Part shown: positions 48,651 to 54,503 of the stretch, one piece after another | Numbering within the stretch: position 1 is the stretch's first letter | Layout: every line of letters begins with the position of its first letter | NCBI GenBank assembly: GCA_028715605.1 | Contig: JAQURM010000001.1 | Location: 62,001 to 126,000, forward strand | Reading direction: 5' to 3' | From: Desulfovibrionales bacterium | GTDB taxonomy: Bacteria; Desulfobacterota; QYQD01 | DNA length: 64,000 bases | Position numbers and translations under genes: made by a program | Notes under the pieces: model-generated | What the model was told of the DNA's origin: nothing | Databases searched by the model: none | Seen by the model: only the letters and a program-made list of their open reading frames with translations

Positions 48651-48783
48651 GAAACTTTTGACAGTACCCAACCCAAACATCAAGGTCGTTCGTGTAACAA
48701 TGTAATGGGGGGCGCTGTGGGTCGTCTTTGAGAAGCTTGAAATTCTTTTCGGGAAGCCTCTGGTTAGCCACCGATAATTTCAT
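48547..48783 (-). pseudogene. RelE/ParE-like toxin remnant
   Basis: The frame starts inside the end of mazF and reads EKNFKLLKDDPQRPPLH, which resembles the KNFKLLKDDPRHPSLHFKK segment of a common RelE/ParE-family toxin. The following strands (expected WSVRV...YRALA) are absent, and the C-terminus reads into the CGCAGAG repeat. A fragment of a second toxin or a chance frame; I favour a remnant. Confidence 0.35.
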
Positions 48784-49102
48784 TTAGGCCTTCGATTACG
48801 AGATCAATTTCTTCCGGCGATACTTTCGCAATTCGCTTTCCGAGACGTTCCTGCGATAGGGTACGTATCTGGCTGATCTTTACCCACGATTGCTTTGGAA
48901 GAGCTCGACTGGAAAGAGGGAGGGTAAGAGGAAATCCTGCTTTTGGCGGTTGACTTGTGAGGGCAACGGCAATTACGACGCCCGATCGATCATTGAAAAC
49001 ATCCTGGCTGAGGACAAGCACCGGCCTTTGGCCGGATTGTTCGTGCCCTTTTATCGGATCCAGATTCGCCCAGTAGATATCGCCCCTCAGTATTCTGGCC
49101 AT
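48764..49102 (-). CDS. mazF: MazF/PemK-type endoribonuclease toxin
   Basis: Sequence-specific mRNA interferase. [29 protein letters not shown] is the family N-terminus (quoted in parts: [25 protein letters not shown]), and [17 protein letters not shown] holds the usual C-terminal strand. 112 residues. Its ATG at 49102 overlaps the antitoxin stop by 16 bases, so translation is coupled. Confidence 0.9.
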
Positions 49103-49329
49103 TTTTCGATTTCCCGCGAGAACCCTTCCTCGGCAACAGCCTTTTCAAGGTCCGGATCGAGCTTGGCGCACTCTCTCGCTAAACGACTCCTGTTGACACG
49201 AGCAAGTTTTTCTTTGATGGCCTCCTGTATTGCCTTGCTCCTATTGGGGAAGACTTTGGAAGAAACTAATCTGTCCAGCTTCCCAAGTACTTCTTCTTCG
49301 ATAGTGATGGCAATCTTGGCAGTGCCCAT
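49087..49329 (-). CDS. CopG/RHH-type antitoxin
   Basis: 80 residues. Ribbon-helix-helix N-terminus ([31 protein letters not shown]) and an acidic C-terminal tail ([19 protein letters not shown]) that would cap the MazF active site. ATG at 49329 follows GAGGTG with good spacing; an earlier frame start is not supported. Known RHH-MazF pairs repress their own promoter. Confidence 0.85.
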
Positions 49330-49479
49330 ATTTTCACCTCTGGTATTACAATATATCATACCATCAGGTTTTTCAAGTCCTTTTGTGGCTAATAAATCTG
49401 TTAAAAAGCCCGCTTTTCAGTATCTCCATATTCGTAACTATTTGATTTTATTAATGGCAAAACTACGAAGAGAGACTTT

Positions 49480-49512
49480 CCCGACAGACTCAACACTCGG
49501 GTTCAGGCGATC
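49480..49512 (-). other. Degenerate attC-like site after the first hypothetical gene
   Basis: Minus-strand GATCGCCTGAAC at 49512-49501 is nearly the complement of this gene's own 5' core site GTTAAGCGATC (49999-49989). It is followed by CCCGA...TCGGG, which can close a stem. The downstream GTTRRRY box is not clear, so the site looks decayed. Confidence 0.4.
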
Positions 49513-49515
49513 TCT

Positions 49516-49977
49516 TCATATCGGTACATGCTGTTTTGGTAATTGACCTATGACAATCGAATTGAGATCAATGCCGGACAGCACCATGACTGCTTTGTAT
49601 GCTTCAAGCAATGTGTCATGTATTGATCCGAGGTCTTTCAACATGAGTGCTCTTCCTTCTTCCGAGTTTCTGCGAAAGTTGTGACGCCGATAAAATGAAT
49701 GCGAAAGGCGATTGCGCTCTGTGAGAGCACGGGACAAAAGTGCTTCGAGATGACCAACAGATTCAGATGAACTGCTTACGTTCTTAAGAAGCTGCCCAAG
49801 AGTTTGGCGATTTATCTTCTTGAAAAGCACCGATGCTAGCTCTGGATTCGGTTCGCCTAAGAGGTTCTCTTCAGCCACACCAATCTTGATGAGGATATTG
49901 CCGAGTTCGGTCTCAAGCAGTTGAGCCGCTTCGGAGGCCTCACCGAACTTTCGATACACGTCATCCAAGGTTGGCAC
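49516..49977 (-). CDS. Hypothetical protein in an integron-like cassette
   Basis: A 153-residue, mainly helical, soluble protein (EASEAAQLLETELGNILIKI, LEALLSRALTERNRLSHSF). No recognised domain. ATG at 49977 has AAGGAGG 3 bases upstream and lies just 16 bases after the boundary motif GTTAAGC, the compact layout of integron cassettes. The gene and its neighbour use more mixed codons than the surrounding housekeeping genes. Function unknown. Confidence 0.65.
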   Translation of the reverse strand: MPTLDDVYRKFGEASEAAQLLETELGNILIKIGVAEENLLGEPNPELASVLFKKINRQTLGQLLKNVSSSSESVGHLEALLSRALTERNRLSHSFYRRHNFRRNSEEGRALMLKDLGSIHDTLLEAYKAVMVLSGIDLNSIVIGQLPKQHVPI

Positions 49978-49992
49978 ATAACCTCCTTGATC

Positions 49993-50033
49993 GCTTAACG
50001 TCGGGCGGGTCCCTCCGCACGCCCTGGTTAGGT
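49993..50033 (-). other. attC-like recombination site between two hypothetical genes
   Basis: On the minus strand ACCTAAC (50033-50027, RYYYAAC-type R box) and GTTAAGC (49999-49993, GTTRRRY-type) flank an internal GGGCG/CGCCC stem. The stop codon TAA of the upstream gene is inside the first box. Total 41 bases, shorter than most attC sites. Confidence 0.55.
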
Positions 50034-50657
50034 CGCTTGTTTTGGGATTTTGTGTTCGTCATAGACTCGAGCTTTCGATAAGTCAACCCAGTGGCTGTGA
50101 GGGAACGTAGGTACTTCGCGATCGAACTCCTTCAGGATCTCATCTCTGACATCTTTCCACAGGGCGAATACCTTTTTATGGCAGGTTTGGGCTTCGCATC
50201 GCTGAATGCTTGGCCCGAACCCAAGGTCTTCTACGAGGAGGTAGATATTTTTAATCGGCTCAAAGGGATACAGTCCACTCTTGATGTTGGCATCTGGCAG
50301 ATTGCAGAATACACCTCGGACTTCGTCTATAGCAACACTAAGCTTAATCAGCACAGTGCGATATTGTGCCTCGGTCGTGATTTCAAACTGGCAATACTGA
50401 AGTGCACAATGGGCGGCCTCAACAAGACTTGACCACAAAGATCTTAACTGTTGCTGATAGGCGTGGCGCCTTTGTGCGCAGTAACCCAGCCATACCGCAG
50501 TAATGCCGATAAATATGGGCAGGAGATCCTTGAATGTCGAGAACACGATTCGCTCTTCGGTGCAGTCAAAAATACTGATCAAAATTCCGACAATTGCGAG
50601 GATCGTAAAAACAGCGATGGCACCGATGAACCACCTCCTGATGGATTTCTTGGTCAT
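50028..50657 (-). CDS. Hypothetical membrane protein in an integron-like cassette
   Basis: 209 residues with two N-terminal hydrophobic segments (WFIGAIAVFTILAIVGILI and LLPIFIGITAVWLG) and a soluble helical C-terminus. No known family. Its stop lies in the attC-like R box GCGACCTAAC, and 20 bases before its ATG the same sequence recurs inverted (GTTAGGTCGC at 50683-50674), as expected when a cassette carries its own core site. Function unknown. Confidence 0.65.
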   Translation of the reverse strand: MTKKSIRRWFIGAIAVFTILAIVGILISIFDCTEERIVFSTFKDLLPIFIGITAVWLGYCAQRRHAYQQQLRSLWSSLVEAAHCALQYCQFEITTEAQYRTVLIKLSVAIDEVRGVFCNLPDANIKSGLYPFEPIKNIYLLVEDLGFGPSIQRCEAQTCHKKVFALWKDVRDEILKEFDREVPTFPHSHWVDLSKARVYDEHKIPKQAT

Positions 50658-50676
50658 TCCTGACTTACCTCATGCG

Positions 50677-50683
50677 ACCTAAC
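50677..50683 (-). other. Integron-type core site GTTAGGT
   Basis: Minus-strand GTTAGGT fits GTTRRRY and extends to GTTAGGTCGC, the exact complement of the R box at the other end of the 50028-50657 gene. No attI or integrase gene is seen upstream. Confidence 0.45.
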
Positions 50684-50844
50684 ATTATATTTAGCTATTA
50701 ACTGTCTTTTATCATAGTCATAGAGAAAAAAGATAGTGGCGTCAAGCAAAAAGGGGGTTTTGGGGGTAAAGGGGAAAGTCCCCAAAGCGATGGCCAGAAG
50801 ACCAGGTCTTGCGTTTTTCGATGTCGCTGATTAAAGTAACGTTT

Positions 50845-51000
50845 AATGAACTCGTAAAAAGTCGAGGGTAGGACGGCACAGTAAAAAGCTCCAGTTGCAA
50901 GGCGCGCAAATCCTGAGGAATGAGGCGTACTTGTAGCTACGCCGCAGTGACGAAGGATGCGGCGCAACGCAGCAAATGGACTTTTTACGAAGCCGTCAAC
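50845..51000. mobile_element. MITE-like element with GACTTTTTACGA ends
   Basis: GAACTCGTAAAAAGTC (50848-50863) and GACTTTTTACGAAGCCGTC (50979-50997) form terminal inverted repeats. Inside are ATCCT/AGGAT and GGCGTA/TACGCC hairpins. No open frame. Together with plain sequence at 50684-50844 it makes up the 323-base gap before mfd; its end is 10 bases from the mfd start. Confidence 0.6.
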
Positions 51001-51006
51001 GTTTGA

Positions 51007-51567
51007 GTGATTACCGATACCCATTACCTAACCGACCTGAAAAAATCCATTACACGAGGAGGCCTTGTAGATGTTACCGGGCTGAAAGGCTCTTCCCTGG
51101 CCTTTGCCCTGGCCGAAATCGAAAAAACACTCTCCGGCCCTGTCATATGTGTAACCCCTGGCTTAAAGGAGGCAGAACTCTATGCCACGGAGTTTGCCTT
51201 TTTCTGTAAACGGCCGGTCTTTGTCTTCCCGCCCTATGAAGTCTTTCCTTTCAGCGAACTATCCCCCCACAGGACCACGGTAAGCCGCCGTATCGAGACC
51301 CTTTACCGCATGGTCTCCGGTGATCCTAACTTTATCGTCGTGGTTCCGGTGGAGGCCCTATTACAAAAGTTGCTGCCCAAAAAGGCGCTGACCGATTTTG
51401 TCGATTATATCGTTACTCATGAAGATATCGACCGCCAGACCTTAAGAGAAAAGCTGATAGCCGGCGGCTATACCGCTACCTCGCTCGTGCAGGAAGTGGG
51501 AGACTTCAGCATCCGGGGTGGCATTATAGACGTTTTTCCCCCCTGCACACCAATCCCGTCCGTATAG
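51007..51567 (+). CDS. mfd: Transcription-repair coupling factor Mfd, N-terminal part (frameshifted)
   Basis: The UvrB-like N-terminal module of Mfd, with LVDVTGLKGSSLAFALAE, ELYATEFAFFCKR, FPPYEVFPFSELSPH and VQEVGDFSIRGGIIDVFPP. The frame then runs to an early stop. GTG at 51007 is the likely start, just after the MITE-like element, without a strong ribosome binding site. The break is at the run of six C at 51538-51543: with a seventh C the frame continues FPPLHTNPVRIDCLGDWVES into the next segment. Either an assembly error or a real lesion. Confidence 0.9.
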   Translation: MITDTHYLTDLKKSITRGGLVDVTGLKGSSLAFALAEIEKTLSGPVICVTPGLKEAELYATEFAFFCKRPVFVFPPYEVFPFSELSPHRTTVSRRIETLYRMVSGDPNFIVVVPVEALLQKLLPKKALTDFVDYIVTHEDIDRQTLREKLIAGGYTATSLVQEVGDFSIRGGIIDVFPPCTPIPSV

Positions 51568-51584: not shown

Positions 51585-54503
51585 GTGGAATCCATCCGTG
51601 AGTTTGATCGCCTCACCCAGAGGTCTATACGCGAGATCAATGAGATCATACTCCTTCCGGTACATGAGGTTATTTTGGGAGAGCAAGAAGCCGCCTATGC
51701 CCTGAAACATATCCGCCAATATGCTATGGAGCGGGATATTGCCCTCGACGGGATAAAAGAAATCGAGGCCCAGATAGAACAGCGCATTCACTTCACCGGC
51801 TCTGAATTCCTCCTGCCTTTATTCTATCCCGAACTTTCCGCCTGGCACGATTACCTCCCGGCCGCCGTGCCTGCCGGCAGGCAGGAGGGTCTCCTGGTGA
51901 GTATAGATCCTGCAAGAATAGGAGAAGAACAGGCCCGTTTTCAGAACAAGATCAAAGAAATTAATATAACCGCCCGTGCTGACTCCCGTTTTTGCTCGGA
52001 GCCGCAGGATCTTTATCAAATTGACCAGGACTGGGCAGATTTGATCCCGGCTGCCTCCCATGTACGCATCATATCCTTACCCATAGAAGATGAAACGGGT
52101 GCCGGCGAAAAATTGCGCCTGGCTACGCTGGGCAATGAAGATATAAGGGCTGAATCACAGCCTGGTCATGAGCAGGAAGACCTTTTCACGGCCTTAACCC
52201 GGCGGATAACCGCCTGGCTGGACGAAGGAGAATCTGTTTACCTCGTATGCCGCACGATTCATACTGCGGAACAGGTTAAGAGGCTTCTGGCCGATTGCCG
52301 CATCCAGGCCGAGGTACTGGATACACCTTTCCATTTTGCCCTGGAATCATCGAATCAAAAGGTGCGCATCCATACCGGAGATATCTCGCGCGGCTTCCGC
52401 TTTCCCGCCTATAGGCTTATTCTGATGACTGAGGGCGAGCTGTTCGGTGAAAGGGTAAAAAAACCGGCTGCGGCCATAAAGAAAAAGTTTTCCCCCATTT
52501 TAGACTTTAGCGAGCTTAAGCCTGACGACCTGATCGTTCATCGCGACCACGGCATTGGCATGTATCGTAATCTGGTCCGGCTGGAGGTAGATAACACCGC
52601 CAACGACTATCTGTTATTGGAATACCGGGATGGAGATAAGCTCTATCTGCCTGTATATAGACTCAATGTACTGCAAAAATATATAGGCGTAGAAGGTTAT
52701 AGCCCGCAAATCAACAAATTAGGCGGAAAGTCCTGGCAACTCGCCCGGAAACGGGTCCAGGAAGCCATCTGGAAGGTGGCCCTGGAGCTGCTGGATATCT
52801 ACGCCCGGCGGAAGGTGGAAAAGGGCTTTGCCTTTTCACCACCTGATAGTCTTTATAAGGAGTTCGAGCTATCCTTTGAACATGAAGAGACCCCGGACCA
52901 GATAGCCGCCATAGAAGATACCATAGGAGACATGACTTCACCCCGGCCTATGGATCGATTGATATGCGGGGACGTAGGTTATGGAAAGACCGAGGTGGCC
53001 TTGCGCGCGGCATTTAAGGCCGTAATGGACGGCAGGCAGGTAGCCATACTGGTACCCACAACTGTCCTTGCCGAACAACATTTTCAGACCTTCAGCCGCC
53101 GTCTTTCTCCCTTTCCGGTAGCTGTGGCCTGTCTCAGCCGCTTCCGCACCGCCAAGGAACAAAAACAGATCCTGTCCAGCCTGGCGGAGGGCAAGGTAGA
53201 TATCGTCATCGGTACGCACCGCCTGTTGCAAAAGGATATTAAATTTCACGACCCGGGACTACTTATTATAGATGAAGAACACCGTTTTGGCGTCAGGCAT
53301 AAAGAACAACTGAAAAAAATTAAGAAGACCTTAGATGTCCTCACCCTGACGGCAACACCTATTCCCCGTACCCTTCAGATGTCCCTCCTCAGTGTACGCG
53401 ATCTTAGCGTAATAAGCACACCTCCTCAGGATCGTATCCCGGTTAAAACCTACGTAACCAGGTTCGATGATAATGTAATACGGGAGGCCATCATCCGGGA
53501 ATATCAACGCGGCGGTCAGGTCTTCTTTCTGCATAATCGGGTGGCCGGCATTGAGGCGGTGGCCGAACGTTTGCGGAGGCTGGTCCCGGAGGTGCGCATA
53601 GCCATCGCCCACGGACAGCTTTCCAGCAGGGCGCTGGAAGAGATCATGGTGAGATTTGTACGCCGGGAGATAGACGTATTGGTCTGCACTACTATTATCG
53701 AGTCCGGCCTGGACATTCCCTCGGCTAATACCATAATCATCAACCGGGCTGATCGCCTTGGTCTGGCCGAGATTTACCAGCTCCGTGGCCGTGTGGGGCG
53801 CTCTAAAGAGCAGGCCTATGCCTACCTGTTAGTCCCGTCACCGGCCCACCTTACCAGGGATGCCCAAAAAAGGCTCGAGGCCTTATTGGATCTCAGCGAA
53901 TTGGGATCCAGTTTTAAGCTGGCCATGAGTGACCTCCAGATCAGAGGCGCCGGCAATATACTTGGAACCAGCCAGACCGGACATATTGCGGTAGTGGGTT
54001 ATGACCTGTATCTGGATCTCCTTGAAAAGACCGTAAACGAACTTAAGGGTACCCCGGTTGAAGAAGAGTTTGAGCCGGAAATTAATCTTAAGGTTTCTGC
54101 CTACATACCGGAAAACTATCTGCCGGAGCCGGATCAGCGTCTCATTACCTACCGCCGCTTAACTATGGCAGATACGGTTACGGCGCTCTCAGACATAAAG
54201 GATGAACTAACAGACCGCTATGGCCCCATACCCCCCGAGGTCGAAGACCTCATGTCTATCATGGAAATCAAACAGGATCTCAAGAAACTCAGGGTGCACC
54301 GCCTGGACAGCGCTAATGGTCATGTTATCTTGAGCTTCAGCGATAAGACCAGACTTCATCCGGAAACAATCCTGTCGTTAATCCGTCGTAACCGGGGTAA
54401 GTACCGCTTTACTCCTGAGAATAAACTCTATGCGGCCCTACCCGGTGATGAAGGGGTACAGATACTTGAGGAAGTCAAAAAAGTCTTGCAAGCCCTTTTG
54501 TAA
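51585..54503 (+). CDS. mfd: Transcription-repair coupling factor Mfd, main part
   Basis: The remaining 970 residues of Mfd: an RNA-polymerase-interacting domain (LVRLEVDNTANDYLLLEY region), then SF2 helicase motifs GDVGYGKTEVALRA (Walker A), IDEEHRFGV (II), TATPIPRTLQMS (III), IESGLDIPSANTIIINRAD (V), and QLRGRVGRS (VI), and a C-terminal TRCF domain. Mfd removes stalled RNA polymerase and recruits UvrA. The first codon of this open frame (GTG 51585) is not a real start; this part joins 51007-51567. Confidence 0.93.
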   Translation: MESIREFDRLTQRSIREINEIILLPVHEVILGEQEAAYALKHIRQYAMERDIALDGIKEIEAQIEQRIHFTGSEFLLPLFYPELSAWHDYLPAAVPAGRQEGLLVSIDPARIGEEQARFQNKIKEINITARADSRFCSEPQDLYQIDQDWADLIPAASHVRIISLPIEDETGAGEKLRLATLGNEDIRAESQPGHEQEDLFTALTRRITAWLDEGESVYLVCRTIHTAEQVKRLLADCRIQAEVLDTPFHFALESSNQKVRIHTGDISRGFRFPAYRLILMTEGELFGERVKKPAAAIKKKFSPILDFSELKPDDLIVHRDHGIGMYRNLVRLEVDNTANDYLLLEYRDGDKLYLPVYRLNVLQKYIGVEGYSPQINKLGGKSWQLARKRVQEAIWKVALELLDIYARRKVEKGFAFSPPDSLYKEFELSFEHEETPDQIAAIEDTIGDMTSPRPMDRLICGDVGYGKTEVALRAAFKAVMDGRQVAILVPTTVLAEQHFQTFSRRLSPFPVAVACLSRFRTAKEQKQILSSLAEGKVDIVIGTHRLLQKDIKFHDPGLLIIDEEHRFGVRHKEQLKKIKKTLDVLTLTATPIPRTLQMSLLSVRDLSVISTPPQDRIPVKTYVTRFDDNVIREAIIREYQRGGQVFFLHNRVAGIEAVAERLRRLVPEVRIAIAHGQLSSRALEEIMVRFVRREIDVLVCTTIIESGLDIPSANTIIINRADRLGLAEIYQLRGRVGRSKEQAYAYLLVPSPAHLTRDAQKRLEALLDLSELGSSFKLAMSDLQIRGAGNILGTSQTGHIAVVGYDLYLDLLEKTVNELKGTPVEEEFEPEINLKVSAYIPENYLPEPDQRLITYRRLTMADTVTALSDIKDELTDRYGPIPPEVEDLMSIMEIKQDLKKLRVHRLDSANGHVILSFSDKTRLHPETILSLIRRNRGKYRFTPENKLYAALPGDEGVQILEEVKKVLQALL

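Follow-up and report, generated by a model that had tools for sequence, protein, structure and literature searches.

Gene cassettes behind a probable attI-like docking platform from a dispersed repeat family in a Desulfovibrionales genus

Introduction

Integrons are described as having one attI site beside one integrase, with good expression of the first cassettes only. Published accounts place a normally single attI site near the integrase (PMC9024848) or, in most cases, next to it (PMC12901181). Multiple intI genes and intI pseudogenes within one genome are known (PMC2426708). The integrase-less cassette groups known as CALINs have been proposed to be degraded integrons (PMC9024848), and IntI is able to mobilise them in trans (PMC12444791). 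In the open-access literature we found no description of a dispersed family of homologous attI sites, which is not proof of novelty.

Here we analyse a locus within a 64-kb stretch of DNA (the window) of a Desulfovibrionales genome, denoted G000, in comparison with four congeners (G001-G004; five congeneric genomes in all). The segment 48763-50682 is, with good confidence, a row of cassettes (encoding a 209-aa protein, a 153-aa HEPN-like protein and a PemIK pair) inserted at G^TT behind an attI-like docking platform, most likely that of a former integron. The window cassettes are a genuine group, and the main interest lies in the platform behind which they stand, as a variant of integron architecture.

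Cassette borders and attC sites

Table 1. Features of the cassette locus (window positions) and sets of orthologous slots in congeneric genomes
Feature	Position	Strand	Description
attI-like platform, family A	50683..50770	-	about 88 bp before cassette 1; ends AAATATAAT^G; promoter-like TTGACG-17-TATGAC
Cassette 1	49999..50682	-	from the core TT to the G preceding the next core; limits set by the core/R'' match
Core site GTTAGGTCGC of cassette 1	50674..50683	-	crossover G^TT; upstream of the 209-aa gene
209-aa gene of cassette 1	50028..50657	-	hypothetical protein; N-terminal segments hydrophobic
attC of cassette 1	49992..50034	-	43 nt, short: R'' ACCTAAC, stem GGGCG/CGCCC, R' GTTAAGC
Cassette 2, decayed attC	49393..49998	-	from borders and comparison with G001
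Core site GTTAAGCGATC of cassette 2	49989..49999	-	upstream of the 153-aa gene
153-aa gene of cassette 2	49516..49977	-	all-helical; invariant RNxLxH motif; HEPN-like (tentative)
Cassette 3, PemIK toxin-antitoxin pair	48763..49392	-	RHH antitoxin 49087-49359, PemK toxin 48764-49102
Orthologous slot set 1, following gene differs			G000 C4, G001 C6, G004 C5
Orthologous slot set 2, following gene differs			G000 C16, G001 C12, G003 C18
Orthologous slot set 3, following gene differs			G003 C131, G002 C112
Orthologous slot set 4, following gene differs			G004 C152, G003 C256
Orthologous slot set 5, following gene differs			window, G001
Orthologous slot set 6, following gene differs			G000 C7, G001 C11

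The inverted borders of cassette 1 can be read directly from the DNA: the core and the R'' element GCGACCTAAC (50036-50027, minus strand), which overlaps the stop codon of the 209-aa gene, form a perfect 10-nt complement, and the same pair is present in the inverted-repeat listing as I8 (13 nt, 92% complementary). Among the 83 window ORFs of at least 100 aa, the longest border complement belongs to the 209-aa gene (9 nt from TT); the next best among the other ORFs is 7 nt, and 72 of the 83 have none. In a slot-wise test with cores exchanged, the 10-nt match has a p value of approximately 0.001. The GGGCG/CGCCC stem, which is paired, is situated between the 209-aa and 153-aa genes. This attC is short and decayed, and most of its right arm seems to be missing. 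When the 55-nt region around it was folded as DNA, the result was no better than for shuffled sequences (z -0.31), so that folding energy alone gives the site no support.

In cassette 2, the element 3' of the 153-aa gene, GATCGCCTGAAC (49512-49501, minus strand), is an imperfect complement of the core, and this end of the cassette has no match to the attC covariance model described below. The two genes of cassette 3 belong to known families (PF02452, E=2e-30, and PF01402), and their borders, TTAGCCAC (49392-49385) and GTGGCTAAC (48771-48763), both on the minus strand, match but are short, 8-9 nt; the border complement of the PemK ORF is only 6 nt, as in eight other window ORFs. The initial annotation of this DNA had reported the border motifs of the first two genes, the second core and the stem, and all of these are present where it placed them. 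It had likewise described the first attC as short, the second as degenerate and a toxin-antitoxin module as lying next door; these descriptions agree with the 43-nt length, with the imperfect R'' and lack of a model match in cassette 2, and with the PemIK pair, which is bordered in the same way.

To score attC sites, we built a covariance model (R1) from 20 integron attC sites of other members of the phylum (21 pairs, with 83.8% of cells pairing and a covariation score beyond all shuffles). When applied to the integron of the host genome, R1 recovered canonical attCs at 22.7-42.9 bits. In the 64-kb window, the best match was 49992-50034 on the minus strand (14.6 bits, E=0.26) and the runner-up, elsewhere in the window, reached 12.9 bits; the window attC is thus the top candidate but is not significant alone. 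The covariance search that had been put forward as a check therefore placed the predicted locus first in the window, but only with a marginal score. Altogether, one attC at the locus rises above noise, a second is supported by core complementarity only, and no intI is found nearby. A scan of the window with Rfam gathering thresholds detected only SRP RNA and tRNAs.

Protein products of the cassettes

The 209-aa protein has no family in Pfam, NCBIfam or PADLOC and no relative in 58-59 related genomes, plasmids, genome contigs or viral contigs. The AlphaFold2 model of the 153-aa protein (pLDDT 84) consists of five helices, and the RNxLxH motif is invariant in 23 aligned sequences. One orthologue matched HEPN_RiboL-PSP (PF18735) at 5e-4; a fold search of the PDB with the model produced no match at E<=0.001 and did not confirm the assignment, so the protein is only tentatively regarded as HEPN-like. 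Its relatives with 67-68% identity come from one Nitrospirota and one Cloacimonadota genome, and further relatives were detected in Acidobacteria, Desulfobacteraceae, Gemmatimonadetes and Variovorax, as well as on plasmids. At several loci in other genomes, including those of other phyla, a canonical attC directly adjoins the orthologous gene (29.8 bits at L143, 21.0 at L141, 20.5 at L184, 19.3 at L147 and 16.9 at L154).

Replacement of the cassettes in a sister genome

G001 has hflX, the PemIK pair and mfd in common with the window (about 94-96%), and an unrelated 225-aa gene replaces positions 49390-50678. Similarity between the two genomes ends inside the core site at one edge and at the toxin-antitoxin border at the other, and the 225-aa gene is bordered by ATTAGCCGTCAT and ATGACGGCTAAC, with an 11-nt core/R'' match of its own. 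With a different cassette between the same borders in G001, the unit meets the expectation for a mobile element. The whole block is absent from G002, G003 and G004.

These observations bear on the possibility that we are dealing with two ordinary chromosomal genes flanked by border motifs that arose by chance. The covariance-model E-value at the locus, which taken alone is not significant, is compatible with such a reading, but attC-flanked orthologues exist elsewhere, both the 209-aa and the 153-aa genes are absent from 58 relatives, and the reading is rejected because of the replacement at the same borders in G001; it can be practically dismissed. Integron-type cassettes without an adjacent integrase gene, as proposed in the initial annotation, are supported by this exchange together with the attC-flanked orthologues. 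The annotation had held that the same gene flanked by attC sites in other genomes would favour its proposal, as is indeed seen for the 153-aa orthologues, and that conserved synteny without the boundaries would refute it, a pattern that was not seen, with a different gene in G001 and no block in G002-G004.

Two other features of the window were noted. Positions 50843-50999 comprise a dispersed MITE-like repeat of approximately 155 bp with terminal inverted repeats TCGTAAAAAGTC/GACTTTTTACGA, which has many copies in all five congeners. The mfd gene, which is a single frame of 1158-1165 aa in the congeners, is represented in the window by two ORFs (51007-51567 and 51585-54503), with a frameshift close to a poly-C stretch that could be either a mutation or a sequencing error.

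A dispersed family of attI-like platforms

Cassette 1 is preceded by an attI-like repeat (nhmmer match at 50766-50681, 80.3 bits, E 9e-24) that the initial annotation missed, and the locus is accordingly more than a leftover cluster of attC sites. A dedicated search, limited to the genus, yielded 16 copies of this family (family A) in G000, G001 and G004; one short partial match in G001 was left out of the count. In those copies that were inspected, divergence sets in at AAAATATAAT^GTT or very close to it. A second, commoner sub-family (family B), which came to light when core sites at other attC loci were traced, has 51 matches, some of the weakest being partial, which are distributed over all five congeners and end in ...GTCGAGTCGATATAATATATAAT^GTT; of the 395 genomes of the phylum searched, only the five congeners matched, and the other 390 lack family B. 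The total comes to about 67 platforms in the five genomes, roughly 8 to 22 per genome, with 22 in G000.

The two families agree in 13 of their last 14 bases and contain tandem motifs, GACAG in A and GTCGA in B. Across 34 aligned copies, column conservation is 0.9-1.0 through GTT and drops to 0.3-0.7 directly after it. The platform thus meets one criterion for attI, namely that cassettes are inserted at the G^TT of one conserved site. A strict sigma-70 scan of the window copy detected no promoter; the TTGACG-17-TATGAC element in family A was spotted by eye, and a promoter function of the platform is plausible but inferred.

At one locus in G000 (L207, C7:88000-97500), four full or partial family-A platforms are found within 5 kb. 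Several family-B platforms, L278 and L287 among them, carry an additional TTATGTCGAGTCGACATAATAT motif about 180-190 bp before the core, which resembles their own 3' end and looks as if platforms were stacked.

Platforms as docking sites

The strongest evidence that the platforms are docking sites is provided by orthologous slots: in six of these, the species have the same platform family behind an upstream flank that is about 86-98% identical, and the next gene is different (Table 1). In two further species pairs, the same slot carries family A in one species and family B in the other. Furthermore, a same-strand model attC lies no more than 5 kb downstream of 22 of the 67 platforms, compared to 2, 5 and 0 in three orientation controls, with no model attC within this distance for the other 45. 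A core/R'' match of at least 7 nt, involving the platform's own core, is present within 1.5 kb downstream of 14 of 38 copies, vs 2.2 expected when the cores are exchanged. In G004, a toxin-antitoxin pair 71% identical to that of the window is located immediately behind a family-A platform.

The locus could alternatively be an ordinary CALIN, i.e. either the decayed remnant of a single integron or cassettes that landed at chance attG sites, with the upstream repeat being incidental. The degeneracy of the attC sites at the window locus would fit this explanation, CALINs distant from intI are common, for instance in Xanthomonas (PMC12444791), and insertion of cassettes into genomes at attG sites is known (PMC12901181). 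We nevertheless consider it unlikely: the element before the junction has about 67 homologous copies in all, with breakpoints exactly at G^TT, whereas attG sites are described as divergent in sequence (PMC12901181), and exchange has occurred repeatedly at the same point in orthologous slots.

The possibility of a 3' platform was raised by a repeat located after some of the attCs (TGTGTGCCGGGCATGG...) and then dropped; the repeat resembles the 5' end of a group II intron, without confirmation from Rfam. The sequence TGTGTGCCGGGCATGGCAYAGGACTATCGGG, located directly after attCs at L208 (3776 and 5024), L246, L247 and L258, shows the same resemblance; Rfam gave no intron match in L208, L246 or L258.

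Integrase and integrase remnants

G000 encodes a single IntI above the family cut-off (377 bits against a cut-off of 265); it lies at C4:185504-186439 and is accompanied by a canonical attC array. The view of the locus as an attC cluster lacking an integrase therefore stands for its immediate surroundings but not for the genome, which has an integron integrase on another contig. The attI beside this IntI does not match the platform profile, and by eye the two have only an AT-rich end in common. No IntI above the cut-off was found in G001-G004; because these assemblies are drafts, absence is not proven, and cassette turnover in these genomes would need a lost, missing or visiting integrase. In G001, three attC matches (C10:80069-83400; L038, L247) lie beside a tyrosine recombinase that was considered as an IntI and rejected, given that it scores below the cut-off and adjoins an apparent IS91-type transposase.

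Intact intI was not found beside any platform examined. Just upstream of two platforms there are IntI fragments (G002 C112, 63% over 51 aa, E 1e-13; G001 C7, E 3e-7), oriented divergently as an intI gene would be, and weaker traces are seen at two more platforms; a 46-kb control contains no IntI fragment. Remnants of any kind were observed at only three or four of the 43 platform copies tested.

The remnants also speak to the possibility that the platform repeat is MITE-like or a transposon end, and that the downstream genes were acquired by a non-integron mechanism. The repeat is dispersed, with a variable 5' extent, and other MITE-like repeats are abundant in these genomes, which is what such an element would lead one to expect; yet no conserved 3' partner end is seen among the family-A loci, complementarity of the platform's own core with R'' and attC structures behind platforms are far above control, and divergent IntI remnants precede some platforms. 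We therefore regard this explanation as very unlikely.

A possible scenario and comparison with known systems

For cassettes docked at attI-like platforms, the most likely scenario is that the platforms descend from intI-attI modules from which the divergently oriented intI was deleted; that all copies derive from complete integrons is an inference, whereas the cassette borders, the exact breakpoints, the dispersal, the turnover of cassettes at orthologous slots and the integrase remnants can be read from the sequences themselves. Each remaining platform would serve as a docking slot to this day, or would have done so until recently, where the attC of a circular cassette would recombine with the platform G^TT and the inserted cassette may obtain a promoter from the platform. 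The integrase would probably, and most simply, be supplied from elsewhere in trans, which again is inferred; in G000, the only full-length IntI found is the one on contig C4. More tentatively, and short of what we would call probable, one IntI might serve more than 20 scattered slots, each with its own promoter, in a distributed integron where cassettes are expressed singly vs queuing behind one attI.

Attention is thus drawn to attI-like slots across a genus, at which genes differ between species wherever orthologous slots were compared. If a remote integrase fills the slots, cassette expression is not necessarily limited to the head of one array, and cassette loci without an integrase would be functional components as well as debris. 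Given the conserved flanks, exchange can be counted, and a slot could be read across strains as a register of acquired genes.

Among the known systems, the attI2 core (minimal AATAAAATG^TTRRRY, PMC12901181) resembles the platform ends, TAAAATATAATG^TT in family A and TAATATATAATG^TT in family B; the comparison covers the platform end only, and there is no intI2. With attG sites (Loot et al., 2024, as described in PMC12901181 and PMC12444791), the platform slots have in common chromosomal cassettes away from an integron, but, according to these descriptions, attG sites are divergent and widely spread, whereas the slots possess a common homologous element. As in sedentary chromosomal integrons, a complete example of which is present on contig C4 of G000, insertion is at G^TT, the cassettes have one orientation and a promoter-like sequence precedes the first cassette; the slots of the window type differ in being scattered, with short cassette rows and without an adjacent intact intI. 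Finally, attC-bounded cassettes with no intI nearby are the hallmark of CALINs as defined in IntegronFinder (PMC9024848), but the window locus, with one weak attC, falls under the default threshold of two attC sites and, unlike a CALIN, is preceded by a conserved attI-like platform, and each genome has many slots of this kind.
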